Shown piece by piece: positions 12,163 through 63,265 of a DNA stretch of 64,000 nucleotides (position 1 is its first letter; the number at the start of each line of letters is the position of its first letter). Made by a program: the position numbers and the translations under genes. Origin of the DNA: Actinopolyspora lacussalsi subsp. righensis (GTDB taxonomy: Bacteria; Actinomycetota; Actinomycetes; Mycobacteriales; Pseudonocardiaceae); NCBI RefSeq assembly GCF_900116555.1, contig NZ_FPAT01000003.1:124001-188000 (forward strand). Direction: 5' to 3'. The notes beneath the pieces were generated by a model. The model did not search any database. It saw only the letters and a list, made by a program, of their open reading frames with translations, and was not told the origin of the DNA.

Positions 12163-12325
12163 GGCCGAACTACCACCACGCCCGCGGGGCGAACCCCCCA
12201 CCACTCACGCGGTCGGCACCGCCGCGGGTTCTCCCGTGCGGCTCTCGCGAGGAAGGCCCGACGTTGTGTAGGTCGCTACCCGATGTCGGGCCTCCCCGGA
12301 GCGAGAGCCGTGCCAGAGGTTCCGC
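12163..12325 (+). repeat. Dispersed double-stem element, copy 1
   Basis: Two degenerate 24-nt units (GGCCGAACTACCACCACGCC and the next) lead into a long hairpin. The outer stem is CGGCTCTCGC (12239-12248) with GCGAGAGCCG (12301-12310). The inner stem is GGCCCGAC (12255-12262) with GTCGGGCC (12285-12292). The loop contains GTAGGTCGCTAC. The tail GTGCCAGAGGTTCCGCC is also conserved between copies. It fills the gap between two convergent genes, which suggests a bidirectional 3'-end signal. Confidence 0.8.
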
Positions 12326-12362
12326 CAACTGAGCACCCACGCAGCCGGAGCCGAGGAACCGG

Positions 12363-12728
12363 TCAGTCCGTAGTGCAGACGGCGCGGAACACTCGTTCGC
12401 CGGACTCCTGCGCCGCCGCCACCAGCACCGAACCGATACCGCGGTACGCCTTGGGATCGTGCTCGGCCAGCACCCGGTGACCGGACCAGATCAACACGTG
12501 CTCCCCGCTCGGGAGCCAGGACAGGTCGATCAGGCAGTCGTAGAGCGCGTCGAGATTGCGTCCGGCCCATTCCGGGAACGAGAGCTGGGCGGCGATCGCG
12601 CACAGCATCATGCGCTTGTTGACCAGCTCGCTGCCGTCGACCACATGGGGACAGGCCCCCGCCGAACGGACCTGCTCGACCGCCTGTGCGGTGGTGCCCA
12701 CGACGGGCAGCGGGGCGGGCTCGACCAC
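12363..12728 (-). CDS. Barstar-family protein
   Basis: A barstar (ribonuclease inhibitor) type protein. The family pattern is visible: VVDGSELVNKRMMLCAIAAQ, then LSFPEWAGRNLDALYDCLID and LSWLPSGEHVLIW, where the Asp/Trp-rich helix contacts the nuclease. I placed the start at the GTG at 12728, which has AGGAAGGA 7 nt upstream. An upstream ATG run at 12776-12782 would add 16-18 residues but has no clear ribosome-binding site. No barnase-like nuclease gene is adjacent, so the target is unknown. Confidence 0.75.
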   Translation of the reverse strand: MVEPAPLPVVGTTAQAVEQVRSAGACPHVVDGSELVNKRMMLCAIAAQLSFPEWAGRNLDALYDCLIDLSWLPSGEHVLIWSGHRVLAEHDPKAYRGIGSVLVAAAQESGERVFRAVCTTD

Positions 12729-12831
12729 TGACGTGTCCTTCCTGGCGTGTCGCTTCAGGAAGCCTACCGCATTCATCATCATCAACCGTGCGATTCAATC
12801 CTGCCGGATCGGTGCCTGGAGTCCACGACGC

Positions 12832-12924
12832 TCACATTCCGTCGACGTACTGGCCCAACCAGCCGAGAACGACCAGTACGAGCAACAGCACCAGGGTGCC
12901 GGTGATCCGAGCGCGCGAACTCAT
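12832..12924 (-). CDS. 30-residue single-TM microprotein
   Basis: The frame reads MSSRARITGTLVLLLVLVVL and then a short GWLGQYVDGM tail, ending in TGA. It is one basic N-terminus, one membrane helix and a short outside tail. GGGGGAGG lies 5 nt before the ATG, an unusually strong site for so short a frame, and codon third positions are GC-rich as in real genes. It lies between the barstar-like gene and another small membrane protein on the same strand. Function unknown. Confidence 0.6.
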   Translation of the reverse strand: MSSRARITGTLVLLLVLVVLGWLGQYVDGM

Positions 12925-12951
12925 CCACGCCTCCCCCGGAACGACACATGA

Positions 12952-13233
12952 TCACGAAACACCGTGCCACTCCCGTTCGGAGCCGTCACGGTTCGAACTC
13001 GTCTCAGCGCCCGCGTGGCGCTCGTAGCTCTCCTTGCTGCGCAACGGAGGTTCGGCGTCGCGAATCCTGCTCGCCTTGGCCGAGATCTCGTCGACGATGC
13101 GGTCGACGAGTCGCGCCACCAACCAGCACAGCGGCACGAGAACCACCAGTACCAGCGCCACCTGGAACGGGTAGGGAAGCAGCACGAGCCACGACTCGAC
13201 CCCGTCCCACAACGCGACCAGCTCGCCCATCAC
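12952..13233 (-). CDS. Small membrane protein, unknown function
   Basis: A 93-residue protein with one strong TM segment (PFQVALVLVVLVPLCWLVAR, about residues 22-43), then an amphipathic stretch (LVDRIVDEISAKASRIRDAE) and a polar charged tail. The start is GTG 13233 or ATG 13230; neither has a strong Shine-Dalgarno sequence. It lies upstream of the microprotein on the same strand with a 27-nt gap, so the two may form an operon. I do not recognise the family. Confidence 0.6.
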   Translation of the reverse strand: MMGELVALWDGVESWLVLLPYPFQVALVLVVLVPLCWLVARLVDRIVDEISAKASRIRDAEPPLRSKESYERHAGAETSSNRDGSEREWHGVS

Positions 13234-13412
13234 GGACCGTCAGCGTACTCCCGGGGTGGTTCCAGCGTGCGCCGGGCACCCCGGGTGACGGAACGGCCCG
13301 CGGCGCCGGGAATCACTGGACCGGTCCAGCCGGGTACTCCTGGATCGGACGTGAATCGGCTGCCGTACTCGGTCGCGTCGATTCCGACCAGACGCTCGCC
13401 CCTCACACCCGC

Positions 13413-13622
13413 GCCGAACTCCCACCACTCCCGTAGCCGAGCCCCGACCACCCTCGAAAGTCGCACTCCGACCACCCCCGCAGGCCGAGCTCCGGCCACT
13501 CTCACCACCGGCACCGCCGCGGGTTCTCCCGTGCGGCTCTCGCGAGGACGCCGGAGACGTTGTGTAGGTCGCTACCCGATGTCGCCGGACCCGCAGCGAG
13601 AGCCGTGCGAGAGGTTCCGCCA
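13413..13622 (+). repeat. Dispersed double-stem element, copy 2
   Basis: The longest copy: four degenerate 24-nt units (about 13413-13510) and then the hairpin. The outer stem is CGGCTCTCGC (13534-13543) with GCGAGAGCCG (13596-13605). The inner arms are CCGGAGAC (13551-13558) and GTCGCCGG (13581-13588), different from copy 1 on both sides yet still pairing at 7 of 8 positions. The loop GTAGGTCGCTAC is unchanged. It lies downstream of mmsB, which is read from the other strand, and fills most of the 437-nt gap to the small membrane gene. Confidence 0.8.
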
Positions 13623-13669
13623 CCCGCACCGCTATGCGGGCCGAACCGCGAACCCCGTGAGGGCCAAAG

Positions 13670-14557
13670 CTAGCTTTCGGAGTGGCGGCGGACGGACTCG
13701 ATCACGGCGCTGAAGTCGTAACCCCCGCCGCCCTCCGAGTTGAACCGGTCGTAGATCCGCGCGGCCAACCGCCCCACCTCGGTGTCGGTGCCGCTCTGCT
13801 CGGCCGCCGAAACGGCGAGGTTGAGGTCCTTGAGCATCAGCGAGGCCGCGAAACCCGGTTCGTAGTCGTGATTCGCCCTGCTGGTCTCCACCATGCCCGG
13901 CACGGGGCAGTTGGTGGTCAGCGACCAGCTCTGTCCGGTGGACACGGAGGTCACGTCGTAGAGCGCCTGGTGCGGGAGTCCGAGTTTCTCCCCCAGCACG
14001 AACGCTTCGGCCGTGCCGAGCATGGCCGCCGCCAGCATGAGGTTGTTGCACATCTTGGTGACCTGGCCGTTGCCGTCGCCACCGCAGTGGATCACCTTCC
14101 GCGCCATGGGCTCCAGGAAGGGCTGCGCGGCCTGGTAGGCCCGCTCGGAGCCACCGACCATGAACGTCAACGTGCCCGCCTCGGCACCGGCCGTGCCACC
14201 GGAGACCGGGGCGTCTATCGCGTCCAGCCCCGCGGCCGCGGCCAGCTCGTGCGCCCTGCGCGAGTCGGCCACGTCCACGGTGGAGGAATCGACCAGCAGC
14301 GTGCCCGGCGCGACCGAGCCCAGCATCCCGTCGTAGCAGTCCAGCAGCTGCTTGCCCCCCGGCAACATCGTGATCACGGCGTCGGCGCCGGTAACCACCT
14401 CGGCCGCCGAGTCGACCGTGGTCACCCCGTTCGCCGCCGCGCGCTCGATCACTTCCGGCATCAGGTCGAAACCCCGCACGGTGTGGCCGGCGTTGACCAG
14501 GTTCGTCGACATCGGGCCGCCCATGTGCCCCAACCCGATGAATCCGATGACTGCCAT
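13670..14557 (-). CDS. mmsB: 3-hydroxyisobutyrate dehydrogenase
   Basis: A 295-residue NAD-dependent beta-hydroxyacid dehydrogenase. It has the Rossmann motif GFIGLGHMGGPM at the N-terminus, the substrate-binding DAPVSGGTAGAEAGTL at about 120, and the catalytic Lys in QVTKMCNNLML at about 170. It oxidises 3-hydroxyisobutyrate to methylmalonate semialdehyde in valine breakdown. It is the last gene of the leftward block mmsA, acyl-CoA dehydrogenase, hydrolase, mmsB, 56 nt after the hydrolase, so it supplies the substrate of MmsA. Confidence 0.9.
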   Translation of the reverse strand: MAVIGFIGLGHMGGPMSTNLVNAGHTVRGFDLMPEVIERAAANGVTTVDSAAEVVTGADAVITMLPGGKQLLDCYDGMLGSVAPGTLLVDSSTVDVADSRRAHELAAAAGLDAIDAPVSGGTAGAEAGTLTFMVGGSERAYQAAQPFLEPMARKVIHCGGDGNGQVTKMCNNLMLAAAMLGTAEAFVLGEKLGLPHQALYDVTSVSTGQSWSLTTNCPVPGMVETSRANHDYEPGFAASLMLKDLNLAVSAAEQSGTDTEVGRLAARIYDRFNSEGGGGYDFSAVIESVRRHSES

Positions 14558-14613
14558 GGTCGATTACCTTTCTCGCGATCCGACACTGTCACGAAAACCG
14601 GGGGACGGGGAGA

Positions 14614-15672
14614 TCAGTCGGACAGACCGAGATCCCCGTTGGTGGGAGTGCGGAAGAACGCGGCGACGTGCTCCTCGCCCACGTCCTCCAGCTGGGCCGG
14701 GGACCAGGCCGGGTTACGGTCCTTGTCCACGAGGGTGGCGCGCACGCCCTCCAGGAAGTCGCCGCGGTGCACGCAGGCCAGCGAGACGCGGTACTCCTGG
14801 TCGAGCACTTCCTCCAGGGAGTTCAGCCGCGCGGCCGACCGCAGCGCGCGCAGCGTCACCTTCAGCGAGGTGGGCGACTTCGTGGCGATGGTCTCGGCCG
14901 CTTCGCCGGCCTCCGGCTCGCTCCGGGACCGGAGTTCGGTCAGGATTCCCTCCACGGACTCGGCCGCGTAGACCTCGTCGATCCAGCTCGCGGCGGCGCG
15001 CAGCCCGGACTCGGGAGCCACTGTGGCGTACTTGTCCAGCACGGCCGAGGCGTCTCCCTCGGTCAGGGCGTTGACCAGTTCGTCGAGTTCGGAACTGTCG
15101 ACGTAGTGGTCGGCCAGCCCGCAGTGGATCGCGTCCGCACCGCTGACGGGAGCTCCGGTCAGCGCCATGTGGGTGCCGAGCTGCCCGGGGGCGCGGGAGA
15201 GCAGATAGGTGCCGCCGACGTCCGGGGCGAAGCCGATGCCGACCTCGGGCATGCCGACCTTGGAGCGCTCGGTGACCACGCGGTGCGAACCGTGTGCCGA
15301 GATGCCGACTCCGCCGCCCATGCAGATGCCGTCCATGATGCCGACGACCGGTTTGGGGTAGTGCGACAGCGCGGCGTTCATCCGGTACTCGGCTGCCCAG
15401 AACTCCTCGGTCCGTTCGGGCTCGCCCGCCTTGACCGCGTCGTACATGGCGCGGATGTCCCCGCCCGCGCACAGTCCGCGGTCCCCGGCGCCCTCGATGA
15501 GCACCGTGCGCACCCGGTCGTCGGCGCGCCACTCCTCCAGCGCGTCCAGTACCGAGGTGACCATCTCCATGGTCAGCGAGTTGAGGGCCTTCGGCCGGTT
15601 GAGCGTGATCCGGCCGAGGGATCCCTGCACGTCGAGCAGCACCTGCTGCTGTTCGGCGGCGTGAGTTGTCAT
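14614..15672 (-). CDS. 3-hydroxyisobutyryl-CoA hydrolase
   Basis: A 352-residue crotonase-superfamily protein of the long HIBCH type. GRITLNRPKALNSLTMEMV, DRGLCAGGDIRAMYDAV and GICMGGGVGISAHGSHRVVT mark the CoA-binding and oxyanion regions, and PEVGIGFAPDVGGTYLLSRA holds the catalytic Glu. The length and the C-terminal half (FLEGVRATLVDKDRNPAWSP) separate HIBCH from ordinary hydratases. It releases 3-hydroxyisobutyrate from its CoA ester in valine degradation. The ATG at 15672 overlaps the TGA of the acyl-CoA dehydrogenase (ATGA). Confidence 0.88.
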   Translation of the reverse strand: MTTHAAEQQQVLLDVQGSLGRITLNRPKALNSLTMEMVTSVLDALEEWRADDRVRTVLIEGAGDRGLCAGGDIRAMYDAVKAGEPERTEEFWAAEYRMNAALSHYPKPVVGIMDGICMGGGVGISAHGSHRVVTERSKVGMPEVGIGFAPDVGGTYLLSRAPGQLGTHMALTGAPVSGADAIHCGLADHYVDSSELDELVNALTEGDASAVLDKYATVAPESGLRAAASWIDEVYAAESVEGILTELRSRSEPEAGEAAETIATKSPTSLKVTLRALRSAARLNSLEEVLDQEYRVSLACVHRGDFLEGVRATLVDKDRNPAWSPAQLEDVGEEHVAAFFRTPTNGDLGLSD

Positions 15673-16850
15673 TGGTCCGACTCCAACATTCCACGGGAAA
15701 TGATCAATCGCATGATCTCGTTCGTGCCCTCCAGGATCTGATGCACCCGCAGGTCGCGAACGATCTTCTCCATGCCGTACTCGGCAAGGTATCCGTAACC
15801 TCCGTGGAGCTGAAGGGCTTCGTTGGCCACGTTGAATCCGCTGTCGGTGGCGAGCCGCTTGGCCATGGCGCAGAGTTTTGTCGCCTCGGGGTCCTTGGCG
15901 TCCAGCGCGGCGGCGGCGCGCCACAGCAGGGTGCGGGCGGCCTCCAGTTCGGTGGCCATGTCGGCCAGCTTGAATCGCAGCGCCTGGAAATCGCCGATCC
16001 TGCTTCCGAAGGCGGAGCGCTGCCCGACGTAGGCCAGTCCGCGTTCCAGTGCGGCGCGAGCTCCGCCGAGCGAGCAGGCACCGATGTTGAGTCTGCCGCC
16101 GTCCAGTCCGGACATGGCGATGCGGAAGCCGATGCCCTCCTCGCCGAGCCGGTTGCGCACCGGAACCCGCACGTCGGTGAACACGACCTGGCGGGTGGGT
16201 TGGGCGTTCCAGCCCATCTTGTCCTCTTCGGGGCCGAACGAGATGCCCTCGCTGGCACCGTCGACGACGAGGGCGGAGATACCGCCGGGGCCGGGCTCGC
16301 CGGTGCGGACCATCACCACGTAGACGCCGGAGTAGCCGCTTCCGGAGATGAACTGCTTGACCCCGTTGACCACGTACTCGTCGCCCTCGCGAACCGCCCT
16401 GGTGCGCAGCGCGGCCGCGTCCGAACCGGCGTCGGGTTCGGTGAGGCAGTAACTGCCCAGACTCCGCATGGCGCACAGCTCGGGCAGCCACTGTTCGCGT
16501 TGCCGCTGGTCGCCGAACGCGTCGATCATCCAGGCGACCATGTTGTGTATCGAGATGTAGGCCGCGATGGTGGGACAGCCGGTGGCCAGCTCCTCGAACA
16601 CGAGGGCGGCGTCGAACCGGCTGAGCCCGGTGCCGCCGTACTGCTCGTCGACGTAGATCCCACCCATGCCGAGTTCGCCCGCCTCGGCCAGCACGTCCAC
16701 GGGGAAGTGTTTCTCCCGGTCCCACCGCAGCGCGTTGGGGGCGATGCGTTCCGCGGCGAACTCGCCCGCCGTCTCCTTGAGCGCACGCTGGTCGTCGGTG
16801 AGCGCGAACGGGGATCGCGGTGTTTCGGAGGCGATCACGGAAGCGGTCAT
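15669..16850 (-). CDS. Acyl-CoA dehydrogenase, probably isobutyryl-CoA dehydrogenase
   Basis: A 393-residue FAD enzyme. YCLTEPDAGSDAAALRTRA is the FAD/substrate motif, GSRIGDFQALRFKLADMATE the helical domain, and LHGGYGYLAEYGMEKIVRDL with ILEGTNEIMRLII closes the active site. The start is the ATG at 16850, with AGGAG 8 nt upstream; an extension to 16940 adds residues untypical of the family. Context in the valine block (followed at once by the hydrolase with a 4-nt overlap) suggests isobutyryl-CoA to methacrylyl-CoA. Chain length cannot be proved from sequence. Confidence 0.88.
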   Translation of the reverse strand: MTASVIASETPRSPFALTDDQRALKETAGEFAAERIAPNALRWDREKHFPVDVLAEAGELGMGGIYVDEQYGGTGLSRFDAALVFEELATGCPTIAAYISIHNMVAWMIDAFGDQRQREQWLPELCAMRSLGSYCLTEPDAGSDAAALRTRAVREGDEYVVNGVKQFISGSGYSGVYVVMVRTGEPGPGGISALVVDGASEGISFGPEEDKMGWNAQPTRQVVFTDVRVPVRNRLGEEGIGFRIAMSGLDGGRLNIGACSLGGARAALERGLAYVGQRSAFGSRIGDFQALRFKLADMATELEAARTLLWRAAAALDAKDPEATKLCAMAKRLATDSGFNVANEALQLHGGYGYLAEYGMEKIVRDLRVHQILEGTNEIMRLIISRGMLESDQ

Positions 16851-16937
16851 GTGGGACTCCTGCTCGATCGGGGACGCCGGATCGCGGCGTCGGGCCTCTC
16901 GCGGTGGCGGCACCACCGGTTCGCGGTCCGTGGTGGT

Positions 16938-16970
16938 CACACCGCCGGTGGGGTCACCACCGGCGGTGTG
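16938..16970 (-). terminator. 13-bp perfect hairpin between mmsA and acyl-CoA dehydrogenase
   Basis: CACACCGCCGGTG (16938-16950) pairs perfectly with CACCGGCGGTGTG (16958-16970) across a 7-nt loop. There is no U tract, as is common in high-GC actinomycetes. It lies 56 nt after the mmsA stop and 88 nt before the next start, so it may set the mmsA 3' end or reduce read-through. Confidence 0.5.
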
Positions 16971-30338: not shown

Positions 30339-30370
30339 CGGGTGTCGATTTCGCGCGAAATCGACACCCG
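30339..30370. repeat. 32-bp perfect palindrome, GATTTCGCGCGAAATC family
   Basis: CGGGTGTCGATTTCGC (30339-30354) is followed without spacer by its exact reverse complement (30355-30370). It lies 38 nt after the OsmC-family stop, so it can form the terminator of that gene. Its 16-bp core recurs at 33586-33601 and, with a changed centre, at 49565-49580. Confidence 0.75.
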
Positions 30371-33573: not shown

Positions 33574-33609
33574 CGCTCGCGTGGCGATTTCGCGCGAAAT
33601 CCACGAGCG
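33574..33609. repeat. Palindrome of the GATTTCGCGCGAAATC family
   Basis: The core GATTTCGCGCGAAATC (33586-33601) is flanked by arms that pair with small bulges (CGCTCG...GTGG with CCACGAGCG). It lies upstream of both divergent genes (VOC protein on the minus strand, SPFH on the plus strand), so here it is not a terminator for either reading gene. Confidence 0.65.
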
Positions 33610-36554: not shown

Positions 36555-36662
36555 GGTCCGCATTCTCCCACTCGGGCCGACGGTCAACCCCGTCCCGGAT
36601 GCTGGATCAAAGTGGTCGGATGACGGGTTCATGCCGTAGCGTTGCCGAAACAACTTGGATAG

Positions 36663-36789
36663 CTCATCCAGAGGGGCAGAGGGACCGGCCCGGCGAAGCC
36701 CCGGCAACCAGCGTCGGCACCGCGACCACGTTCGTGGCGCGGATCGACGAAAACGGTGCCAATTCCGACCCGCCAGCGGGACAGATGAG
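36663..36789 (+). promoter_or_regulatory. SAM-I (S-box) riboswitch upstream of thrC
   Basis: All conserved parts are visible. P1 is CTCATC (36663-36668) with GATGAG (36784-36789). AGAGGGGCAGAGGGACCGGC, then CGAAGCC and GGCAACC, form the P2 and J regions. GGCACCG (36714-36720) with CGGTGCC (36754-36760) form P3, extended by CCACG/CGTGG. GGTGCCAATTCC is the typical motif after P3, and CCCGC/GCGGG form P4. The thrC ribosome-binding site AGGGGAAGG starts right at the end of P1, so control is probably on translation: ligand binding would hold or free that site. Confidence 0.9.
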
Positions 36790-36804
36790 GGGAAGGACCT
36801 CGCG

Positions 36805-38076
36805 ATGACAGCTGCCGCCCGAACACAGTCCGAGACGACCGACCGGAAGTTCGACCTCGGCCCCGCGGCCGAGCTCGTATCCAAGGAAGAGGGGCATCGG
36901 CAGCCCCTGGCTCCGGAGTTCGTCTGCCTGGAGGACTTCTCGCCGCTGGAAGTCGCCTACGACTTCGGCCGCGTGCGCAGGGAGGACATCGAGTCCGGCC
37001 CGCGCTCGATCTGGCGCTACAAGAACCTGCTGCCGGTTCCGTCCGATGTGGAGCGGCACCCGAACACCGATCCGGGCTGTACGAGGTTGGTCCGGGCCGA
37101 CGCGCTCGCCAACGCGCTGGGCGTCAAACGCATCTGGATCAAGGACGACACGGGGAACCCCACCCACTCCTTCAAGGACCGGGTCGTGGCGGTGGCACTG
37201 GCGGCCGCGCGCGAGTTCGGCTTCAAGGTACTGGCGTGCCCCTCCACCGGTAACCTCGCCAACGCGGTGGGAGCGGCCGCGGCACGCGCGGGCTGGGACT
37301 CGGTGGTGCTCGTTCCCTCCTCGCTGGAACGCGCCAAGGTACTGATGACCGCCGTCTACGACGGCTCGCTGCTGGCCGTCGACGGCAACTACGACGATGT
37401 GAACCGCCTGGCCACCGAGCTGGCCGGGGAACACGAGGACTGGGCGTTCGTCAACGTCAACGTGCGGCCCTACTACTCGGAAGGGTCCAAGACCCTCGCC
37501 TTCGAGGTGGCCGAACAGCTCGGCTGGCGCATTCCGGAGCAGGTCGTGGTTCCCATCGCCTCCGGATCACAGCTCACCAAGGTCGACAAGGGCTTCCGCG
37601 AGCTCGGCGAGGTCGGGCTGGTGGAACAGAGTCCCTACCGGATCTTCGGTGCGCAGGCCACGGGCTGCTCCCCCGTCGCGGACGCCTACAAGCAGAACCA
37701 CGACGTGGTGCAGCCGGTGCGGCCCGACACCATCGCGCGTTCGCTGGCGATCGGCGCCCCCGCCGACGGTCCGTACGTACTCGACACCGTGCGCCGCACC
37801 AACGGTGCGATCGAGGACGTCAGCGACGAGGAGGTCGTCGAGGGCATCCGGCTGCTGGCTCGCACGGAAGGCATCTTCGCCGAGACCGCGGGCGGCGTCA
37901 CCGTGGCCACCACGAAGAAGCTGATCGAGTCCGGACAACTGGACCCGGACTCGGAGACGGTACTGATGATCACCGGCGACGGTCTCAAGACGATGGACTC
38001 GCTGCAGGAGCACGTCGGTCCGAAGGCCACCGTGGCGCCGAGTACCGAAGCAGTGGACGAGGCACTGAACCTCTGA
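36805..38076 (+). CDS. thrC: Threonine synthase
   Basis: A 423-residue PLP enzyme that turns O-phosphohomoserine into threonine. PTHSFKDRVVAVALAAAREF contains the PLP-binding Lys, CPSTGNLANAVGAAAARAGW binds the phosphate, and VVPIASGSQLTKVDKGFREL lies near the active site. The ATG at 36805 follows the SAM-I riboswitch and a GGGGAAGG site. Because the substrate is shared at the homoserine branch with methionine synthesis, SAM-sensing control of this gene would balance the two products. Confidence 0.95.
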   Translation: MTAAARTQSETTDRKFDLGPAAELVSKEEGHRQPLAPEFVCLEDFSPLEVAYDFGRVRREDIESGPRSIWRYKNLLPVPSDVERHPNTDPGCTRLVRADALANALGVKRIWIKDDTGNPTHSFKDRVVAVALAAAREFGFKVLACPSTGNLANAVGAAAARAGWDSVVLVPSSLERAKVLMTAVYDGSLLAVDGNYDDVNRLATELAGEHEDWAFVNVNVRPYYSEGSKTLAFEVAEQLGWRIPEQVVVPIASGSQLTKVDKGFRELGEVGLVEQSPYRIFGAQATGCSPVADAYKQNHDVVQPVRPDTIARSLAIGAPADGPYVLDTVRRTNGAIEDVSDEEVVEGIRLLARTEGIFAETAGGVTVATTKKLIESGQLDPDSETVLMITGDGLKTMDSLQEHVGPKATVAPSTEAVDEALNL

Positions 38077-38117
38077 AGGAACGGTGCCGCTGAGCGCCTT
38101 TCGCGCTCGGTCGGTTA

Positions 38118-38217
38118 CCGGTCGCTGAGGCGGACGCTTGCCGCGTTGGGCCGCTCTTGAGTAGGCCGCTACGCGGCGAGCGGCCCTGCCTCGCAATCGA
38201 ACCACCTCAGCGACCGG
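38118..38217. repeat. Double-stem element related to the dispersed family
   Basis: CCGGTCGCTGAGG (38118-38130) pairs perfectly with CCTCAGCGACCGG (38205-38217), 13 bp. Inside, GGGCCGCTC (38148-38156) pairs with GAGCGGCCC (38178-38186), 9 bp. The inner loop contains GTAGGCCGCTAC, the same loop word as the dispersed elements at 12.2 and 49.7 kb, although the stem sequences differ. It lies 42 nt after the thrC stop in a convergent gap. Confidence 0.7.
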
Positions 38218-38263
38218 GGTTCTGCCGTTCCGAGCCTGCTGCCGGAGTTGTCGAAGCACTGCG

Positions 38264-38328
38264 TGGCGGAACCTCTCGCACCGCTCTCGCTGCGGGAGGC
38301 CCGACATCGGGTAGCGACCTCGGCCACA
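38264..38328 (-). repeat. Dispersed double-stem element, half copy 4 (inverted)
   Basis: On the minus strand this reads GGTCGCTACCCGATGTCGGG, then CCTCCCGCAGCGAGAGCGG and the conserved tail GTGCGAGAGGTTCCGCC, that is, the loop and right half of the family. The left stem arms are not recognisable. It follows directly after the 38118-38217 double stem, so this convergent thrC/comEC gap holds two related elements. Confidence 0.7.
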
Positions 38329-49559: not shown

Positions 49560-49588
49560 GCGGCGATTTCTCGCGAAATCGACGCCGC
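49560..49588. repeat. Variant palindrome of the GATTTC...GAAATC family
   Basis: GATTTC-TCGC-GAAATC (49565-49580) with outer arms GCGGCG and CGCCGC (TC bulge) forms a hairpin 71 nt after the RecQ-like gene. A second imperfect half (CAATTTCCCACGAAATCG) follows near 49610. The core matches the palindromes at 30.3 and 33.6 kb except in the loop. Confidence 0.6.
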
Positions 49589-49645: not shown

Positions 49646-49826
49646 GGCTGAGCTCTCACCACGCCCGCAGGCCGAACCCCCTCGCAAGCCGGACTCCTAC
49701 CACTTACGCAGTCGGCACCGCCGCGGGTTCTCCGGTGCGGCTCTCGCGAGGAAGGCCCGACGTTGTGTAGGCCGCTACCCGAAGTCGGGCCTCCCCGCAG
49801 CGAGAGCCGTGCCAGAGGTTCCGCCA
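49646..49826 (+). repeat. Dispersed double-stem element, copy 3
   Basis: Three degenerate 24-nt units (49646-49711) precede the hairpin. The outer stem is CGGCTCTCGC (49738-49747) with GCGAGAGCCG (49800-49809). The inner stem is GGCCCGAC (49754-49761) with GTCGGGCC (49784-49791). The loop has GTAGGCCGCTAC, with one change from copy 1 (T to C). The tail GTGCCAGAGGTTCCGCC is identical to copy 1. It lies between the convergent RecQ-like and proB genes. Confidence 0.8.
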
Positions 49827-49866
49827 CCCGAACACGTACGCAAACCGAGATGACCGTACAAACACC

Positions 49867-51003
49867 TCAGGTGAGGGGGGCGAGGTCATCGGCGTGCACG
49901 ACCTCACGCCGCTGTTCGAACGGCAGCTCGTGGCTGGAACGGCCGATCAGGTCGGGCAGCTCGGCGGCGTCGAAGCACACCACGCCGCGTGCCACCACCG
50001 CGCCGGAGGGTCCCGCCAGCTCGACGACGTCGCCGCCCTCGAACGCCCCCTCGACACCGGTGATACCGGCGCTCAGCAGGGAACGCCGTCGCCGCAGCAC
50101 GGCGTCAACGGCTCCCTCGTCGAGGTGCAGCCTGCCCTGCGCTCCAGCTGCGTGTGCCAGCCAGAAACGTCGCGCCGACAACCGCGGTCCGGTCGCCGCG
50201 AACACGGTGCCCACGTCGGCCTTCCCGAGAGCGTCGCCGGCCAGGTCCGCCGAGGTGAGCAGGACGGGGATACCGGCCGAACAGGCCACCCGGGCGGCCT
50301 GCACCTTGGAGGCCATCCCGCCGGTCCCCAGCCCGGAGGCTCCGCTCGCCCCGACTGTGATCCCTTCCAGGTCCCGCGCCGCCGAGATCTCGCGAACCGG
50401 ACCGGCCGCACCGTCACGCGGGTCGCCGTCGTAGAGCGCGTCGACGTCGGAGAGCAGCACCAGGGCGTCGGCACCGACGAGATGGGCCACCAGCGCGGCC
50501 AACCGGTCGTTGTCACCGAAGCGGATCTCGGCGGTGGCGACCGTGTCGTTCTCGTTGACCACCGGGACGGCACCGAGGTTCAACAACCGGTGCAGCGTGC
50601 GGTGCGCGTTGCGGTAGTGCGCCCTGCGGACGACGTCGTCGGCGGTCAGCAGTACCTGTCCCACGGTGAGTCGGAACCTCGCGAACGAGGCGGCGTAGGC
50701 GTGTGCCAGCGCCTGTTGCCCCACGCTGGCGGCAGCCTGCTGGGTGGCCAGATCCCTGGGCCGTTTCCCCAGCCCCAGCGGAGCGATTCCCGCCGCGATG
50801 GCTCCGGAGGAGACGAGCACGAGCTGACTGCCCTCCGCCATTCGTGCGGCGACGGTTTCCACCAGAGCCGTCAGACGGTTCTCGTCGAGACCGCCCTCGG
50901 CCGTGGTCAACGAGGAGGAACCGATCTTGACCACGACCCGGCGCGCCGCCGAGATCGCGTTCCGGGTCGGAGATGTCAGGGCGGCGAGTTCACCGGAACT
51001 CAT
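49867..51003 (-). CDS. proB: Glutamate 5-kinase
   Basis: A 378-residue kinase for the first step of proline synthesis. [20 protein letters not shown] and [20 protein letters not shown] are the amino-acid-kinase start, [20 protein letters not shown] the substrate site, and [20 protein letters not shown] the nucleotide site. A C-terminal PUA domain follows ([20 protein letters not shown]-like segment). The ATG overlaps the obg stop (ATGA). proA is not in the window. Confidence 0.95.
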
Positions 51004-52933: not shown

Positions 52934-52947
52934 GTATTCTCACGCCC

Positions 52948-55806: not shown

Positions 55807-56440
55807 CCATAGACGGAAATCACAGCGAACACCATACCGTGACACTAAACACGAATGATTTTCGTGAAGTTAGTCACGCTCTGCCACTGTACGTGTCCAG
55901 GCGAACCGGCAAGGCCGCCACCCGAAACAACGATCTCGCTACGAGAATCTCGCACGAAAGAATCAGACGGAACCGATCAAGCTGTCCGCGCCCCACACGA
56001 TTGAGTGGATATCGATCGCGAAGCGGAGGAAATCGAACACGGCGGCCGTCATCACCGAAGAGTTCGGCGAAGTCGAAGACGCGATCTCAACCGCCGCGAA
56101 AAACCGAAATCGGCCGGGACGGCGAAAGTCACGCACCGGGAGCGGTGTCGCCATGTCCCGGAAACCGTTTCCCGATTCGGGAAGAACCAACACCCGCGAC
56201 GTGCCGAACGGGCAGATCGAACTCCACGCGCGATAAACGAAATATCGGACCTGCCCGAAAGGGCCGTCCGAACACCGCGGGTGTTTCCGCGGCACCGTCC
56301 AACGGCCGGTGGCTACCGGCGAACCGAACACCGGCTCGCAGACGTTCTCAGACGTGCCCGACCACCGAAGGACGCCCCTTGAGTCGGCCCATCGTCGGCC
56401 TCGGGTCGGCGCCCGGACGGTAACGGGCACGCGACGTGGT
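55807..56440. other. Long intergenic region between DUF6230 operon and rne 3' end
   Basis: No convincing gene in about 630 nt. A plus-strand frame (55773-56423) stays open but its protein is basic and low-complexity, with no ribosome-binding site. Composition is less GC-rich at 55800-56000, consistent with a promoter region for the leftward DUF6230 operon. Confidence 0.4.
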
Positions 56441-56546
56441 GGTGGGGCTCCCGCCTCGCCTTCTCCCGGGGAAGGACCGACGTGGTACAGCTGTCCACTC
56501 GATGTCGGTCCCACCCTGCGAGCGCGGGCGGGAAGGTCCGCCAACC
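56441..56546 (+). repeat. Dispersed double-stem element, diverged copy 6
   Basis: TCCCGCC (56449-56455) pairs with GGCGGGA (56527-56533), extended by TCGC/GCGA with a bulge. The inner stem is GGACCGAC (56474-56481) with GTCGGTCC (56504-56511). Compared with copies 1 and 3 (GGCCCGAC/GTCGGGCC), the third base pair has changed from C-G to A-T on both sides. The tail GGAAGGTCCGCCAACC resembles AGAGGTTCCGCC. It lies 67 nt after the rne stop. Confidence 0.65.
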
Positions 56547-56612: not shown

Positions 56613-59600
56613 TCACTCCGACTCGGAGCCCGTCCCCGCCGCCGCGGGAGGTCCGGCCGCACGTCCGGCCGCACGCCGGGACGAACGTTGTACCGGACCG
56701 GCGGAAACCGCCGTGGAACTCGTGGAGCCGGCGGGTTCGGAGACGTTGCCCTCGGTCCGCTCCGCGGGATCCAGCACGACAGGCTGTGGGGCCGTGCCGG
56801 TGATACCGGTCGGCCTGCTGGCCTTGCGTCTGCCCCGCTGAGCCGGTTCGGTTTCGTGCTGAGCGGCCTTGTCCGAAGTGGCGCCGTCCGCTCCGAGCTT
56901 GCCGGCGGCTGGCTCGGCAGCGGCGGCCCGCTGAGCCACCGGGGCCGACGAGGTCTCCGGAGCAGCCGAGGACTCCGACGAGCGCGCACTTCCGTTGGAA
57001 GCCGGTTCGGCAGCCGACTTGGCAGGCTGCTCGGCCACCACCTCCTTGGGGGCCTCGGCGGTCCGACGCACCGCCTGATCCGCGTTGCCCGAACCGTTCT
57101 GACGTCGCTGACGTCGACGGGAACGGGAGTCGGATCCGTTGTCACCGTCGGCACGGGTGGTCTCGCTCTCGGCCGCCGGGGTCTCCGCCCGAGCGGATTC
57201 CGTCACCTCACCGGTGCTCTCGGCCTGCTGACCCGACTTGTTGCGCTGCTTACCGCGGCGGGAGCCGCTCGTGGCCGTGACGTGCTGACTGTGATCGATC
57301 GGTTCCGTGGAAACAAGGACACCGCGCCCACGGCAGTGCTCACAGGTACTGCTGTAGGCCTCCAGCAGACCCGTACCGACCCGCTTGCGGGTCATCTGCA
57401 CCAGACCGAGCGAGGTCACCTCGGCGACCTGATGCCGGGTCCGGTCCCGGCCGAGGCACTCGGTCAACCTGCGCAGCACCAGATCACGGTTGGCCTCCAG
57501 GACCATGTCGATGAAGTCGATGACGATGATGCCACCGATGTCGCGCAACCTGAGCTGACGCACGATCTCCTCGGCGGCCTCCAGGTTGTTGCGGGTCACC
57601 GTCTCCTCGAGATTTCCGCCGGAACCGGTGAACTTGCCGGTGTTGACGTCGATGACGGTCATCGCCTCGGTGCGGTCGACCACCAAGTATCCCCCGGAAG
57701 GCAACCAGACCTTGCGGTCGAGGGCCTTGGAGATCTGCTCGTCGATCCGGTACTCGGTGAAGACGTCCTTGGTGCCGACGTGCTTGCTCAGCCGGGTCAA
57801 CAGATCCGGTGCCACGTGCTTGACGTAGGCCTCGATCGTTTCCCACGCCTGGCCGCCCTGCACCGCCAGCGAGGAGAAGTCCTCGGTGAACAGGTCCCGA
57901 ACCACCTTGATCAGCAGGTCCGGTTCGGCGTAGAGCAGCTGCGGGGCCTGCGCTCCGGAGGACTCGGCCTTGTCCCGGATGTCCTCCCACTGCGCCTGCA
58001 GCCGACGGACGTCCCGGTCCAGCGCCTGCTCGCTGGTTCCTTCCGAGGCGGTGCGGATGATCACGCCCGAGTCCTCGGGGACGATCCGCTTGAGGATGTC
58101 CTTGAGCCGCTTGCGCTCGTTGTCCGGCAGTTTGCGGCTGATACCGGTGGCACCGCCGCCCGGCACGTACACCAGGAAACGTCCCGGAAGGCTGACCTGG
58201 GTGGTCAGCCTGGCGCCCTTGTGCCCCAGCGGATCCTTGGTGACCTGCACCAGCACGCTGTCTCCCGTGGAGAGGGCCTGCTCGATCCGGCGGGACTTGC
58301 CGGCCAGCCCGGCGGATTCCCAGTCGACCTCACCGGCGTAGAGCACCGCGTTACGGCCCCTGCCGATGTCGACGAACGCGGCCTCCATGCTCGGCAGCAC
58401 GTTCTGCACGCGCCCCAGGTAGACGTTACCGACCAGTGAGCCACTGCCGGAGGAGGTCACGAAGTTCTCGACCAGGACGTCGTCCTCCAGGACGGCGACC
58501 TGGGTCTGTCCCTCGTTCTCACGCACGACCATCTTGCGGTCGACCGACTCCCTGCGTGCCAGGAACTCGGACTCGGACAGCACCGGAGCACGTTTGCGGC
58601 CCGCTTCCCTGCCGTCCCTGCGCCGCTGGCGCTTGGCCTCCAGCCGGGTGGAGCCCTTGACGGAGCGGACCTCGTCCTCCGCGTCCTGCCGGGAATTGTC
58701 GGGCGCGGTCTCGCGCACGTGCACGACGGTGTTCGGCGGATCGTCGTCCCGGCTGGCCACGTTCTCGGACTCACCCGAGGACTTGCGGCGCCTGCGTCGT
58801 CTGCGCTTGCTGCCGGCGCCACCACTGCCGGAGTCGGTGTCCTCGTCCACCGCATCGGAACGTTCGGCTTCCCGCTCGCTCGTCTCGGCCGGTTCCTCCG
58901 AGCCGGAGCCACGGGATCCCCCGCTCCGCTGACCGCTGGGCTTGTTCTCACCCTCCGCGGACTTGTCCTTCTTGTCCTTCTTGCTCTTCTTGTCCTTCTT
59001 GGGCCCCCGGGACGATTTCTCGACGTTGTCCGGTTCGGCCGTGGTCGCGGCTTCCGCGCCGGACTCGGAACCCGAGCCCTCGGAGTCGGCGGAACTCTCG
59101 GAGTCGCCCTCGCCGCCGCGCCCACGCCCACGACCACGCCTGCCCCGACGCCGCCGACGGCGCGTGGCGACGCTCTCGGACTGCTCCTCCTCCGAAGGCG
59201 TCCCGTCGTCGGAGTCCGAGGAGGGCTCCGCTGCCTCCGCCACGGCCTCGGTGGCGGATTCCGCGGATTCCGACCGCGATGACGAGCCCGTCTCGGACGG
59301 AGCCAGGAACATCGCCTGCGGGGCCGCGAAGGCCGGCGCGAACGCACTGTTGTCCGAAGTATCGTCGCCGGTGGCGGCGACCCCGTCGGAACCGCTGTCC
59401 CTACCCGTCCGCACCTCGTCGGAGGCGGTGCCGCTCTTCACTGCCGCATCCTCACCGCTGTCGGTTGCCGCCCCCTGGTCCGTCGTCGACGTGCCCGTGG
59501 CGGACCGCGCCTCGGACGCACTCGACTGCCGGGAACCGGAACCACCCGCCGAATGGCCGCCCCCGGCGTCCGACGTCGTGACCCGCTCGTCGGTGGCCCG

Positions 59601-59900
59601 CTGTTCGGACTTCCCCTCCGACTCGGACTGGATCCGGTCCGGACGCAACGAGCGCACCACGTTGAGCGCGACATCCCGGGTGATATTGGACTGCGCACTG
59701 CGCACGGACTCACCGAGTTCACCGAGTGTGGCTATGACCTCGCGGCTGGTGGCCCCCAGCATCTTGGCCAGCGCGTGTACCCGCAGCTTGGCGGGCATCT
59801 CGAAAGTCCGGTGAGCGGATTCGCCCTGTGCCCGCTCTTGCTGCTCCGATGTAGCCGAAGATCCGCTGGAGTTACCAGCGGACGTCTCCCTGTTCAACAT
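56613..59900 (-). CDS. rne: Ribonuclease E/G
   Basis: A 1095-residue endoribonuclease. About 440 N-terminal residues are low-complexity, acidic with basic patches (TRRRRRRGRRGRGRGRGGEG, GPKKDKKSKKDKKDKSAEG), after an IF2N-like start (RTFEMPAKLRVHALAKMLG). The S1 domain (GSLVGNVYLGRVQNVLPSME) and catalytic core follow: MTVIDVNTGKFTGSGG and GGIIVIDFIDMVLEANRDLV hold the metal Asp residues, and CEHCRGRGVLVS the zinc-link cysteines. The C-terminus is again disordered. AAGGAG precedes the ATG. Confidence 0.95.
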   Translation of the reverse strand: MLNRETSAGNSSGSSATSEQQERAQGESAHRTFEMPAKLRVHALAKMLGATSREVIATLGELGESVRSAQSNITRDVALNVVRSLRPDRIQSESEGKSEQRATDERVTTSDAGGGHSAGGSGSRQSSASEARSATGTSTTDQGAATDSGEDAAVKSGTASDEVRTGRDSGSDGVAATGDDTSDNSAFAPAFAAPQAMFLAPSETGSSSRSESAESATEAVAEAAEPSSDSDDGTPSEEEQSESVATRRRRRRGRRGRGRGRGGEGDSESSADSEGSGSESGAEAATTAEPDNVEKSSRGPKKDKKSKKDKKDKSAEGENKPSGQRSGGSRGSGSEEPAETSEREAERSDAVDEDTDSGSGGAGSKRRRRRRRKSSGESENVASRDDDPPNTVVHVRETAPDNSRQDAEDEVRSVKGSTRLEAKRQRRRDGREAGRKRAPVLSESEFLARRESVDRKMVVRENEGQTQVAVLEDDVLVENFVTSSGSGSLVGNVYLGRVQNVLPSMEAAFVDIGRGRNAVLYAGEVDWESAGLAGKSRRIEQALSTGDSVLVQVTKDPLGHKGARLTTQVSLPGRFLVYVPGGGATGISRKLPDNERKRLKDILKRIVPEDSGVIIRTASEGTSEQALDRDVRRLQAQWEDIRDKAESSGAQAPQLLYAEPDLLIKVVRDLFTEDFSSLAVQGGQAWETIEAYVKHVAPDLLTRLSKHVGTKDVFTEYRIDEQISKALDRKVWLPSGGYLVVDRTEAMTVIDVNTGKFTGSGGNLEETVTRNNLEAAEEIVRQLRLRDIGGIIVIDFIDMVLEANRDLVLRRLTECLGRDRTRHQVAEVTSLGLVQMTRKRVGTGLLEAYSSTCEHCRGRGVLVSTEPIDHSQHVTATSGSRRGKQRNKSGQQAESTGEVTESARAETPAAESETTRADGDNGSDSRSRRRQRRQNGSGNADQAVRRTAEAPKEVVAEQPAKSAAEPASNGSARSSESSAAPETSSAPVAQRAAAAEPAAGKLGADGATSDKAAQHETEPAQRGRRKASRPTGITGTAPQPVVLDPAERTEGNVSEPAGSTSSTAVSAGPVQRSSRRAAGRAAGPPAAAGTGSESE

Positions 59901-60904
59901 TCAGCTCCTTCGCCCCCGGGCGCGTCCGACGCGGACGCGGCCGCACGAGGGTCTGCATACGTTCGCTGCCCTCCGCCACTGGTGGCGGTAATTCTGTTCG
60001 CTCCCCCTGCTTCCCTGGTCCGAACCCAGGAACCGCACGGTGGGTCGACGGCGCCCCCGCCGAAATCCGTCACCCTAGGGTGAGATCCACCTGTCGAGAT
60101 CCGGCCGCCGCCCTGTCCTCGGACAGCGGTTCGGCGATCGCGCCTCCTCCGTCGGGCCGACCCTGCGCCAACCGTGTGGCTCGCGCAACCCCCGGCACGG
60201 GCGAGTCGGCGACGACGCGAAGGGCGTCGAGTACGTCGTCGGGTCGCACGACCGGAGTAGCATGCCGTACGACCATTACGATTATCCCATATTGTCTCGC
60301 GCGATCCGGGCAATCGTCCGTCTGTGGGGCGTCAACCGAAAAACGGTCACGCACCGCGTTCAACCGAACACCTCGCCCGGAAAAACCGTGGATCGGCAGA
60401 CCACCACCGTGCCACGGGTTTCACAACACGTCGCCACTCGTGACGACATACTTCCACCGCCGCTCGGCTACCCGCTGCGACGGCCGGGAAACCGGTACCC
60501 GTGAGCGGACCGGTGGGGTACCGACCGGCGCACGGAGCCGGGTAACGCGTGCTCGAAAGTACGCGCCGGATCACGATGCGAGACGAACCGTGACTGATCA
60601 CGTCCGAAGCTCCGGTCGAGAGCTATCCGCGGCGCCACGGCCGCGGCCTGGTAGTGACTCAGCGTTTCCTCCGTAGTCCGATCGAAGGTCCGCCCCGCCG
60701 AAACCGCTCGGGAGGCACCCCGCACCCTACAGCCTAGGCCGGGGGCACACGGCCGCTTCGAAAGCAGCGTTTCGGACGGTTTCCGGAGGCGTTCGAACCG
60801 CGAGGACCCGGCGGCCCCACAGCGGATCCGAAACCGACCACTCCGCCACAACCGAGGGGCCGTCCCCGCACGGTGGGACGGACCAGGTCGCTCGGAACGT
60901 CCGG
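59901..60904. other. Long region upstream of rne
   Basis: About 1 kb between the rne start and the GNAT stop. Apart from the doubtful 68-codon ORF at 60070-60276, I see no gene. The region holds AT-rich stretches near 60270-60300 that could be promoters for rne. A long 5' leader would fit RNase E feedback control, but no structure is recognised. Confidence 0.4.
60070..60276 (-). CDS. Small hypothetical protein upstream of rne
   Basis: A 68-residue frame from ATG 60276: VVRHATPVVRPDDVLDALRV, then VADSPVPGVARATRLAQGRP and a polar C-terminus. Codon third positions are moderately GC-rich. No good ribosome-binding site precedes the ATG, and no family is recognised. It may be a small gene in the rne leader or chance. 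Confidence 0.3.
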   Translation of the reverse strand: MVVRHATPVVRPDDVLDALRVVADSPVPGVARATRLAQGRPDGGGAIAEPLSEDRAAAGSRQVDLTLG

Positions 60905-61441
60905 TCAGAGGTCGCGAGTCAACCAGACCTCGTCCCTCGAATCACCTTCCCCCACGAGCAACGAACCGGGCCAGCGACCACGCTCGGTCCAACCCCGCTC
61001 GGTGTAGAAGCCCTCGGAGTCGGGGGCCGAACGCATCCGCAGCTGCAACCGGGTGATCCCCAGCGCACGGGCGTGCGACTCGGCGGCGTCCAGCAGCTGT
61101 GCACCGATGCCACGCTCGACCACCTGCGGATCGACCAGCAACCACTCCAGCTCGGCCCGGTGCCGCTCCACCGGGAGTTCTCCCGGCCGCAGCACCACCG
61201 CACCGGCGAGGGTGTGCTGCTTGCCCGCCGTGAGCACGTGGCGTCGTTTCGGCCTGGTGGAAGCGTCGTCGACGATCGCCTGCGCGGTCGTGGTCAGCGT
61301 CTCCAACTCGGCATCCGCGGTGAAACCGGTGGCACCGCCTGCCACGGTGACCCGCCCCAGCAGATCGGCCAGTGCCTGCGCCAGCTCGGGATGCGGCTGG
61401 TCCACCCGATGGGGGCCGCTGATGAACTCCGCTTCGGTCAT
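60905..61441 (-). CDS. GNAT-family N-acetyltransferase
   Basis: A 178-residue protein. [20 protein letters not shown] is the central strand, [20 protein letters not shown] the acetyl-CoA loop (V-x-R-G-I-G), and [37 protein letters not shown] the C-terminal part. The substrate is unknown. ATG 61441 overlaps the ndk stop (ATGA), so it is translated with ndk. Confidence 0.88.
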
Positions 61442-61854
61442 GCCGACAGGTCCGGGAACCACAGCTTGAGTTCGCGCTCGGCCGACTCGGCGGAGTCGGA
61501 ACCGTGCACCAGGTTGTACTGCACTTCCAGCCCGTAGTCGCCGCGCAGACTGCCCGCCTCGGCCTTCTCCACCGGGTCGGTGCCGCCCGCGAGCTGCCGG
61601 AAAGCGGCGACGGCCTTGGGGCCCTCCACAACGGCGGCCACCACGGGCCCCGACATGATGAACTCCAGCAGCGAACCGAAGAAAGGCTTGCCGTCGTGCT
61701 CGGCGTAGTGCTGCTCGGCGAGTTGTTGGTCGACCTGGCGCATTTCGAGCGCGACCAGCTTGAGCCCCTTGCGCTCGATTCGGCTGATCACCTCACCGAC
61801 CAGGCCTCGCTCGACGCCATCGGGTTTGACGAGGACGAGAGTGCGCTCGCTCAA
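61438..61854 (-). CDS. ndk: Nucleoside diphosphate kinase
   Basis: A 138-residue enzyme that moves phosphate from ATP to other nucleoside diphosphates. [20 protein letters not shown] and [20 protein letters not shown] are family motifs, and [20 protein letters not shown] contains the catalytic His. The start is a TTG at 61854 with AAGGAG 9 nt upstream; this gives the normal family length, while upstream starts do not. It heads a short operon with the GNAT gene. Confidence 0.95.
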
Positions 61855-62064
61855 CGGGTGTTCTCCTTGGTTTGCTGGGGCCGTCGCGGGCCCGGCCGAC
61901 AACGGTCGATGCTTACGTTGTCAAGGGTATTCGCAACCGGTGCGCTACCGATGGGGTGGGTAGCTCCCCCCACTGTCAAGTCTGGTCCGCGATTCGTTCG
62001 CACGATAGCTTCTGGTCAAGCATACCGACCGGCTGGTCTGTCGCCGAGTGATGAGGAGCCCCGC

Positions 62065-63165
62065 ATGCGCGCCGCCGTACACACCGCAGCGAACGAACCG
62101 CTGCGGATCGAGGAGATCGAAGCAGAGCGTCCCGCCGAGGGTGAGGTTGCCATCGACGTGACTTCCTGCGGTGCGTGCCACTCGGACCTGCACGTGCTGA
62201 AGGGCGAGTTGCCGTTTCCCACCCCCGCGGTGCTCGGCCACGAGGTCGCCGGGGTGATCAGCGAGCTGGGAAGTTCGGTCAGCGGTCTGGAGGTCGGTGA
62301 CCGCGTGGTCACCAGCTTCATCATGCCGTGCGGCAGATGCGCGCAGTGCGCGGCGGGCAACGAGGAGATCTGCCTGGAGTTCTTCGCCTACAACCGCGCC
62401 AAGGGGCAGCTCTACGACGGGCGGACCAGGCTCTCGCGCGGCGACGGTGAACCTGTGTGGATGTACTCGATGGGTGGGCTGGCCCAACGCGCGGTCACCC
62501 CCGCCACCTCGGTGTACCGGGTGCCGGACGGGGTGGAGCTTACGGACGTGGCGGCTGTCGGCTGTTCGACCATGACCGCCTACGGGGCGCTGCGGCACGC
62601 CGCCGACGTGCGGGTGGGCGACACGGTGGCCGTGGTCGCTGCCGGAGGCGTGGGATCGGCGCTGATCCAGCTGGCGCGGGTCTTCGGGGCCGCCGAGATC
62701 ATCGCGGTGGACGTCGCGGCGGAGAAGTTGGAGGCGGCTCGGGAGCTCGGCGCCACCAGCACGGTCAACTCGACCGAGACGGACCCGGCGACGGCGGTCC
62801 GCGAACTCACCGGTGGACGCGGTGTGGACGTCGCCTTCGAGGCGCTGGGCTCGTCCCGGACCTTCGAGGTGGCGCGGGACTCGGTGGTCGAGGGCGGTCA
62901 GGTCGTCGTGGTGGGCATCGCGCCGCCCGGTGACATGGGAGAGCTGAACCTGGGCACCATCGCCCGACGCAAACTGCAGGTCAAGGGCTCCTACGGCGCC
63001 AAACCCCGCAGGGACATGCCGGTGCTGCTGGATCTGGTGGCCCGTGGACTGCTGCGGCCGCAGGACGCGATCAGCGAGCACTACCCGCTGGAGCGGGCGG
63101 CCGAGGCATTCGCCGCGCTGGACCGGGGGGAGATCCGCGGGAGGGCCGTGATCGACGTGGCGTAA
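62065..63165 (+). CDS. Zinc-dependent alcohol dehydrogenase family protein
   Basis: A 366-residue MDR enzyme. SCGACHSDLHVLKGE and VLGHEVAGVISELGSSVSGL give the catalytic zinc ligands. CGRCAQCAAGNEEIC is the four-Cys structural zinc lobe, and VVAAGGVGSALIQLARVFGA the NAD(P) fold. ATG 62065 has TGAGGAG upstream. It is a single gene; the alcohol or aldehyde substrate is open. Confidence 0.9.
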   Translation: MRAAVHTAANEPLRIEEIEAERPAEGEVAIDVTSCGACHSDLHVLKGELPFPTPAVLGHEVAGVISELGSSVSGLEVGDRVVTSFIMPCGRCAQCAAGNEEICLEFFAYNRAKGQLYDGRTRLSRGDGEPVWMYSMGGLAQRAVTPATSVYRVPDGVELTDVAAVGCSTMTAYGALRHAADVRVGDTVAVVAAGGVGSALIQLARVFGAAEIIAVDVAAEKLEAARELGATSTVNSTETDPATAVRELTGGRGVDVAFEALGSSRTFEVARDSVVEGGQVVVVGIAPPGDMGELNLGTIARRKLQVKGSYGAKPRRDMPVLLDLVARGLLRPQDAISEHYPLERAAEAFAALDRGEIRGRAVIDVA

Positions 63166-63208
63166 TGATTACTTCGGCGTCTCGGGAGCTTGGCGGGGTG
63201 GTCGAAGT

Positions 63209-63265
63209 GGCGGAACCTCTCGTACGGCTCTCGCTGCGGCGAAGCCCGAGATCGAGTAGTTACTG
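63209..63265 (-). repeat. Dispersed double-stem element, half copy 5 (inverted)
   Basis: On the minus strand it reads ACTCGATCTCGGGCTTCGCC, GCAGCGAGAGCCGTACGAGA and GGTTCCGCC: the right half of the family with a few changes. The left arms are missing. It lies between the convergent alcohol dehydrogenase and PIN-domain genes. Confidence 0.65.

Follow-up and report, generated by a model that had tools for sequence, protein, structure and literature searches.

A dispersed, strand-specific hairpin repeat antisense to gene 3′ ends in Actinopolyspora and related genera

Dispersed palindromes are common, and several described families resemble the repeat reported here, a sequence of about 200 bases made up of a 111-nucleotide (nt) hairpin core, a 3′ tail of about 35 nt and a 5′ flank of about 50 nt. 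The repeat occurs several times in a 64,000-nt stretch of the genome of Actinopolyspora lacussalsi subsp. righensis (contig NZ_FPAT01000003.1, positions 124,001 to 188,000; the window), where an initial annotation made from the sequence alone had noticed it. Its copies appear to fold on one particular strand, mostly lie antisense to the neighbouring gene at a nearly fixed distance from the stop codon, and mostly oppose the replication fork.

REP, BIME and REPIN sequences, with their RAYT (Y1 HUH) partners, are likewise short, dispersed extragenic palindromes of high copy number, with several families per genome. However, REP sequences are 20–40 nt long, whereas the repeat is a multi-part hairpin of 111 nt; it has no GTAG foot, the foot being close to GCGGGTTCT/AGGTTCCGC in 58 aligned copies, and where GTAG does occur, in Actinopolyspora, it is apical and is not conserved in other genera. 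No RAYT was found beside copies in the window's genome, and both the antisense anchoring to stop codons and a fork polarity opposite to the HUH expectation set the repeat apart. Closer in size are bcr1 of Bacillus cereus, ERIC/IRU and Correia/NEMIS, which, like the repeat, are 100–200 bp long, intergenic, foldable as RNA and mobile on comparative grounds; unlike the repeat, none of them, to our knowledge, lies antisense behind stop codons with a replication polarity. Miniature inverted-repeat transposable elements (MITEs) of the IS5 family are similarly non-autonomous and dispersed, and IS5-like ends are visible by eye in part of the copies from genome G012, which we take to be that of the erythromycin-producing Saccharopolyspora erythraea NRRL 2338; yet a target duplication is unsupported and the Actinopolyspora copies have no conserved terminal repeats. 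Finally, bidirectional intrinsic terminators are also hairpins between convergent genes near stop codons, but no T-run was found in 12100–13700, and the repeat is polar, forms a spreading homologous family and is found in tandem gaps as well.

Fold and distribution of the repeat

When aligned, the copies give a single hairpin that is almost unbroken. Its outer stem carries the near-invariant motifs GCGGGTTCT and AGGTTCCGC; further in, the middle stem is variable, the internal loop (GCGAGGAC / CCCG[GC]AGC) is conserved, and the inner stem and the apical stem-loop are both variable again; about 40 base pairs are present in the predicted folds of two window copies. In an alignment of 119 distinct rows (A2, in which 12 low-scoring rows duplicate other copies of the alignment, read on the reverse strand), standard pairs occupy 95.0% of the cells, compared with 80.0% in shuffles and 38–53% with slid partners. 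Changes on both sides were observed in 24 of the 32 pairs, and double-change cells numbered 470 against 118 ± 8 in shuffles, a strong covariation. The compensatory changes reported by the initial annotation for the inner arms are borne out and recur across the genus. Several chimeric copies with mismatched arms were also found (L030, L044, L049 and L070). Covariation above shuffles combined with conserved unpaired loops is the generic signature of a structured RNA family, and the repeat carries it.

The pairing is also informative about the strand. In a second alignment (A3, 58 rows, with no reverse-strand rows), the outer and middle stems comprise 1058 Watson-Crick, 63 G-U, 11 A-C and 27 other cells after exclusion of two columns in which all 58 rows have G-U; counted as genus-column events, G-U outnumbers A-C by 41 to 10. 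Because G-U on one strand is A-C on the other, the G-U excess tells which strand is folded, and the sequences thus indicate that one particular strand is the folded one. The same strand has the lower predicted energy in 7 of 7 copies of one set and, among the 29 cross-genus copies whose strand was known, in 27.

The loop word GTAGGYCGCTAC occurs 85 times in the window's genome, compared with 7 occurrences of the reversed pattern, and a longer pattern is found in at least 80 stretches, all of them, among the matches listed, from four named Actinopolyspora species (loci from these species were fetched by the exact loop word, which favours well-kept copies). A first covariance model, built on 72 copies, gave 143 matches at E ≤ 0.01 in the window's genome (150 of 8,647 candidates scored) and matched 30 of 120 sampled genomes of the Genome Taxonomy Database (GTDB) family, the window's genome included, in 12 of 46 genera; the further copies that the initial annotation had proposed to seek in this genome and its relatives therefore exist. 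A second, cross-genus model (R2), built on 58 copies from 12 genera, matched 20 of 298 genomes across the order in an insensitive search that scored 12 candidates per genome, and all 20 belong to the same GTDB family, the one family in which the repeat has so far been found. We take this family to be Pseudonocardiaceae; NCBI assigns Actinopolyspora to Actinopolysporaceae. In genus g34, four genomes (G033, G067, G095 and G116) have one high-scoring copy each, possibly at a single conserved locus, and a fifth (G327) has three.

No Rfam covariance model matched the repeat; the only Rfam hit in the window was an S-adenosylmethionine (SAM) riboswitch elsewhere (36661–36791, 70.1 bits), and the only one in ten cross-genus loci was a transfer RNA (E up to 0.1). 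A window copy with its flanks (211 bases) had no match among plasmids and phages at E 1e-5, and no description of the repeat was found among the results listed from the open-access literature.

A diverged subfamily, B, is represented by 41 full copies in the loci fetched. Like the main subfamily, A, it carries GTAGGYCGCTAC at the apex and follows the stop-codon rule described below, although its stems are different. Two further motifs accompany the repeat. A small conserved hairpin, AAGCGGCGNAGCCGCTT, lies about 40 nt 5′ of the main hairpin in many copies of G012 and other genera. The palindrome GATTTC(N)CG(N)GAAATC, with three exact matches in the window (30347–30362, 33586–33601 and 49565–49580) against none expected, is found again upstream of many copies and also occupies one orthologous site where A. 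mzabensis carries the repeat.

Position behind stop codons and replication polarity

Genes were called with a codon-score caller made for this analysis, and no annotation was used. Among copies with a neighbour on the 3′ side, 223 of 272 face that gene's stop codon, and in 182 of 279 copies an antisense gene has its stop codon 28–52 nt away from the 3′ end of the repeat. When both neighbours were placed and the 3′-side gene was facing, 131 of 152 Actinopolyspora copies fell within 28–52 nt, compared with 15.1 expected under uniform placement in the same gaps; the corresponding figures were 44 of 64 against 10.1 in other genera and 175 of 216 against 25.2 for all genera pooled. Not all of these counts are independent, since some copies in the sets from the window's genome and from the four named species are orthologous (15 partner-gene pairs are common to them). 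In subfamily B, 27 of the 32 copies that have such a gene lie 21–51 nt from its stop, and the strand read is the better-folding one in 31 of 41 copies. By contrast with the 3′ side, distances to the facing stop on the 5′ side are broad (medians 101–205 nt). None of 175 near-full copies is inside a called gene. Of the copies in tandem gaps, 41 of 65 lie antisense to the genes, as do 25 of 35 in genome G072 and 11 of 14 in G012. TAG stops are enriched in genes with the repeat behind them (42 of 159, compared with 206 of 1801 background stops).

The window illustrates this arrangement. Three full A copies, all on the forward strand, have cores at 12217–12327 (91.5 bits with R2), 13512–13622 (99.8 bits, inner stem class CCGGAGAC) and 49716–49826 (95.2 bits); the initial annotation had delimited them more widely, its spans taking in flanking repeat sequence. 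Their 3′ ends are separated by 35, 47 and 40 nt, respectively, from the stop codons of the antisense genes 12363–12782, 13670–14557 and 49867–51003. The tail between hairpin and stop (for instance 12328–12362 and 49827–49866, forward strand) is conserved across copies near the hairpin and unconserved next to the stop, and a conserved 5′ flank is seen at approximately 49665–49715, also on the forward strand. The first two copies, within 12217–13622, are 1.3 kb apart behind two successive genes, and the same pair is present in A. mzabensis and in genome G038. The six pieces originally listed all hold. A complete B copy on the reverse strand at 38116–38224 (51.5 bits, E 2e-11), whose apical loop reads in the opposite sense, had been overlooked; its 3′ end and the stop of antisense gene 36805–38076 are 39 nt apart. 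The two half copies, both on the reverse strand, are at 38264–38327 (model positions 48–111), behind the B copy, and at 63208–63260 (positions 60–111), with 42 nt between its 3′ end and the stop of antisense gene 62065–63165. A strongly diverged A-like copy on the forward strand at 56435–56543 is real but weak (24.9 bits, E 2.8e-4) and lies 69 nt from the stop of antisense gene 56613–59798. Thus, the full copies and the second half copy obey the stop rule, and the exceptions in the window are the diverged copy and the first half copy. The codon-score gene calls also agree with the placement given by the initial annotation: four of its six pieces are flanked by convergent genes, and the remaining two come after a gene end. 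Taken with the strong covariation, the tight placement behind stop codons supports the suggestion of a selected structure at gene 3′ ends.

The polarity of the repeat relative to replication was assessed over listed matches, with the origin set at dnaA and the terminus at the point opposite; several genome lengths were rounded. Summed over nine genomes, 271 of 362 listed copies have their folded strand directed against the fork: 77 of 114 in G072 (114 of 145 matches listed), 28 of 36 in G013 (of 131 matches), 32 of 34 in G012 (of 42), 26 of 30 in G052 (of 38), 69 of 97 in G101 (of 125), 18 of 23 in G079 (of 32), 6 of 7 in G014 (of 7) and, with 12 candidates per genome scored, 10 of 11 in G302 (of 12, one on another contig being dropped) and 5 of 10 in G064 (of 12). 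Mobility of the IS200/IS605 type, through single-stranded DNA, predicts the folded strand on the lagging-strand template, the opposite of what is seen in these 271 copies. Because the folded strand is mostly against the fork, the adjoining gene is mostly a leading-strand gene. Gene-strand bias alone does not account for the polarity, since the base rate of leading-strand genes (322 of 525 in G072 and 121 of 201 in G012) is below the bias of the repeat; in convergent pairs, each of which has one leading and one lagging gene so that the base rate is removed, the 3′ end points toward the leading-strand gene in 35 of 40 cases (17 of 21 in G072 and 18 of 19 in G012). Preferential loss of the better hairpin from the lagging template was also considered and rejected: among 63 full G072 copies sampled, the mean strand energy difference was 11.1 kcal/mol in the 45 against the fork and 9.7 kcal/mol in the 18 with it, values that are similar as they stand, without a significance test. 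In G072, 97 of 114 listed copies are in the origin-proximal half, and in G101 the copies are spread. The bidirectional 3′-end signal envisaged by the initial annotation is not supported, because the repeat is polar in its fold (G-U pairs on one strand), in gene orientation (mostly antisense to the adjacent gene) and in fork direction.

Occupancy between lineages and routes of insertion

For genes near the window with reciprocal best orthologues, we counted as occupied those with an antisense repeat scoring above 40 bits at most 150 nt from the stop. Between the window's genome and G072 (96 orthologues), no occupied gene is common and three are private to each, and at one repeat-bearing G072 gene the window's genome has the repeat farther off and in opposite orientation. 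The comparison with G097 (114 orthologues) gave three occupied genes private to the window's genome, and that with G038 (54 orthologues) gave two common and one private to each. With A. mzabensis (168 orthologues), three are common and three are counted in A. mzabensis only, of which a single one is a clean absence because the window's genome keeps a half copy or a remnant at the other two. More broadly, of 48 G072 partner proteins, four match a partner in the four-species set and one in the window-genome set, both of which are partial samples. Lineage-private copies have unchanged anatomy. Occupancy thus varies by lineage, and the repeat seems to spread, although these gains and losses are unpolarised and neither a target duplication nor a transposase has been established; the differing occupancy supports the suggestion of a small mobile palindrome. 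At one gene common to the window's genome and A. mzabensis, the tail and the 5′ flank differ even though the proteins are 97% identical, which, together with the chimeric arms, suggests that copies also recombine or replace each other.

Several routes of insertion were compared. That the repeat is selfish and inserts by machinery, either HUH/REP-like or based on a reverse transcriptase, that is tied both to the fork and to the ends of genes appears possible to us, though short of likely; orientation and anchoring would then reflect the mode of insertion, and the fold would serve the copying of the element rather than the host. This is consistent with the lineage-specific occupancy, the strand-specific fold, the preponderance of fork-opposing copies in eight of the nine genomes and the lack of a clear target duplication, as with HUH elements. 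According to PMC6006769, however, HUH elements act on the lagging-strand template, and the polarity of the repeat is the wrong way round, its folded strand being the leading-strand template. The six Y1_Tnp (PF01797) loci of the window's genome are without a copy in the 3 kb fetched around them, so that, with the polarity also disagreeing, a RAYT/Y1 partner was rejected; moreover, anchoring to stop codons is not a property of HUH elements known to us. For the reverse-transcriptase route, 5′ truncation would be expected to leave 3′ halves, and eight matches on the window's contig do span only about the last half of the hairpin with the 3′ end retained. However, at the two window loci with half copies, A. 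mzabensis has near-full and full copies (hairpin positions 2–110 and 2–111), for which reason the window halves look like later deletions, and deletion accounts for those two; the 3′ half is probably retained because it abuts the gene.

The repeat is less likely still to be a MITE of an IS5-family transposase that duplicates T-N-A and lands on, and regenerates, TGA stops, which we regard as improbable. Part of 34 S. erythraea copies have, by eye, ends like GNGCCTGTCTT, as do local PF13340 insertion sequences, with TCA beside them. Against this, the duplication test, which covered 42–100 nt before the hairpin, lent no general support: there was no signal above shuffles in G072, the window's genome or G013, and a weak one in two sets, namely G012, with 4 of 17 (reached in 10 of 500 shuffles), and the four-species set, with 3 of 59 hexamers (reached in 7 of 500). 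No duplication was visible by eye at filled compared with empty orthologous sites, the sequences of which are diverged. The partner stops are enriched in TAG, which does not match T-N-A, and the Actinopolyspora copies lack a conserved end; as a general explanation, T-N-A duplication was therefore rejected. Nor does the repeat appear to supply the stop codon: in five of seven genes compared by eye, the element-free orthologue ends at the same place, and the other two are too diverged. IS5-family insertion sequences (PF13340) were found inside the repeat at three G012 loci (L279, L282 and L246), at the hairpin base CCTGA/TGAGG, in either orientation.

Candidate roles at gene 3′ ends

The near-fixed distance and polarity relative to the stop codon would also be expected if the adjacent gene's messenger RNA included the hairpin, as a 3′ terminus or a stabiliser, with the complement as the functional strand. 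We consider this very unlikely, given that the complement carries C-A where the other strand has G-U and folds worse in 7 of 7 copies, yet better in two cross-genus copies. Least probable of all, and hardly to be expected, is a decaying palindrome under no RNA selection, in which template switching at the inverted repeat and conversion between copies make the compensatory changes (template switching, according to PMC8794818, can create and maintain hairpins, compensatory changes included): whole arms do swap among a few classes and the chimeric mismatched-arm copies exist, but such switching would erase the conserved non-pairing internal loops and the two invariant G-U columns, leaves the G-U excess over A-C unexplained and does not fit the same loop positions being kept in twelve genera.

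The account that we tentatively favour, while holding it to be far from assured, is that the repeat is a mobile structured-RNA element and serves as a one-way stopper, halting head-on transcription that runs antisense. The folded strand would be made as RNA by transcription heading for the 3′ end of the adjacent gene, originating from read-through of a convergent neighbour or from stray antisense transcription. The hairpin would stop this transcription in one direction, through release of RNA polymerase or cleavage by RNase III; head-on antisense transcription would thereby be kept out of the gene, and copies with such a position and polarity would be retained. RNA sequencing of S. erythraea is reported to show antisense transcription enriched at gene 3′ ends and leading-strand transcription enriched overall (PMC3610266), a pattern that fits the stopper idea without testing it. 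In the same species, 647 small RNAs have been predicted, 265 of them intergenic (PMC3827479).

Several observations weigh against a one-way stopper. The complement strand also folds strongly, and slightly better than the folded strand in L156 and L184, by 1.6 and 0.2 kcal/mol. The 3′-side gene is oriented the other way in 49 of 272 copies, and about one third of the copies in tandem gaps are not antisense, with no convergent gene there as a source of sense RNA. Neither a T-run terminator nor a promoter consensus was found in 12100–13700, the 1.6 kb with two copies that was the only stretch scanned. There is no fork bias in G064 (5 of 10), the bias in G014 alone is not significant, and the leading-strand preference may stem from gene expression or conservation rather than from the fork. 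The data are compatible with selection for position as well as with position-specific insertion. A bolder version of the stopper account sees in the repeat a bacterial mobile RNA element of a new class. It would be copied by way of the folded RNA, in the manner of a short interspersed element (SINE), and integrated with its 3′ end just behind native stops, antisense and against the fork; around leading-strand genes it would then bar head-on antisense transcription in one direction. This we regard as doubtful.

Three features render the function testable, namely the strand-specific covarying fold in twelve genera, the near-fixed distance to the antisense stop and the fork polarity, and the presumed host S. 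erythraea NRRL 2338 is a tractable organism for such tests. If purely selfish, the repeat would point to a mode of insertion able to sense where genes end and which way the fork moves. If it does block head-on antisense transcription, it would offer a direct handle on how bacteria limit conflicts between transcription and replication at gene 3′ ends.

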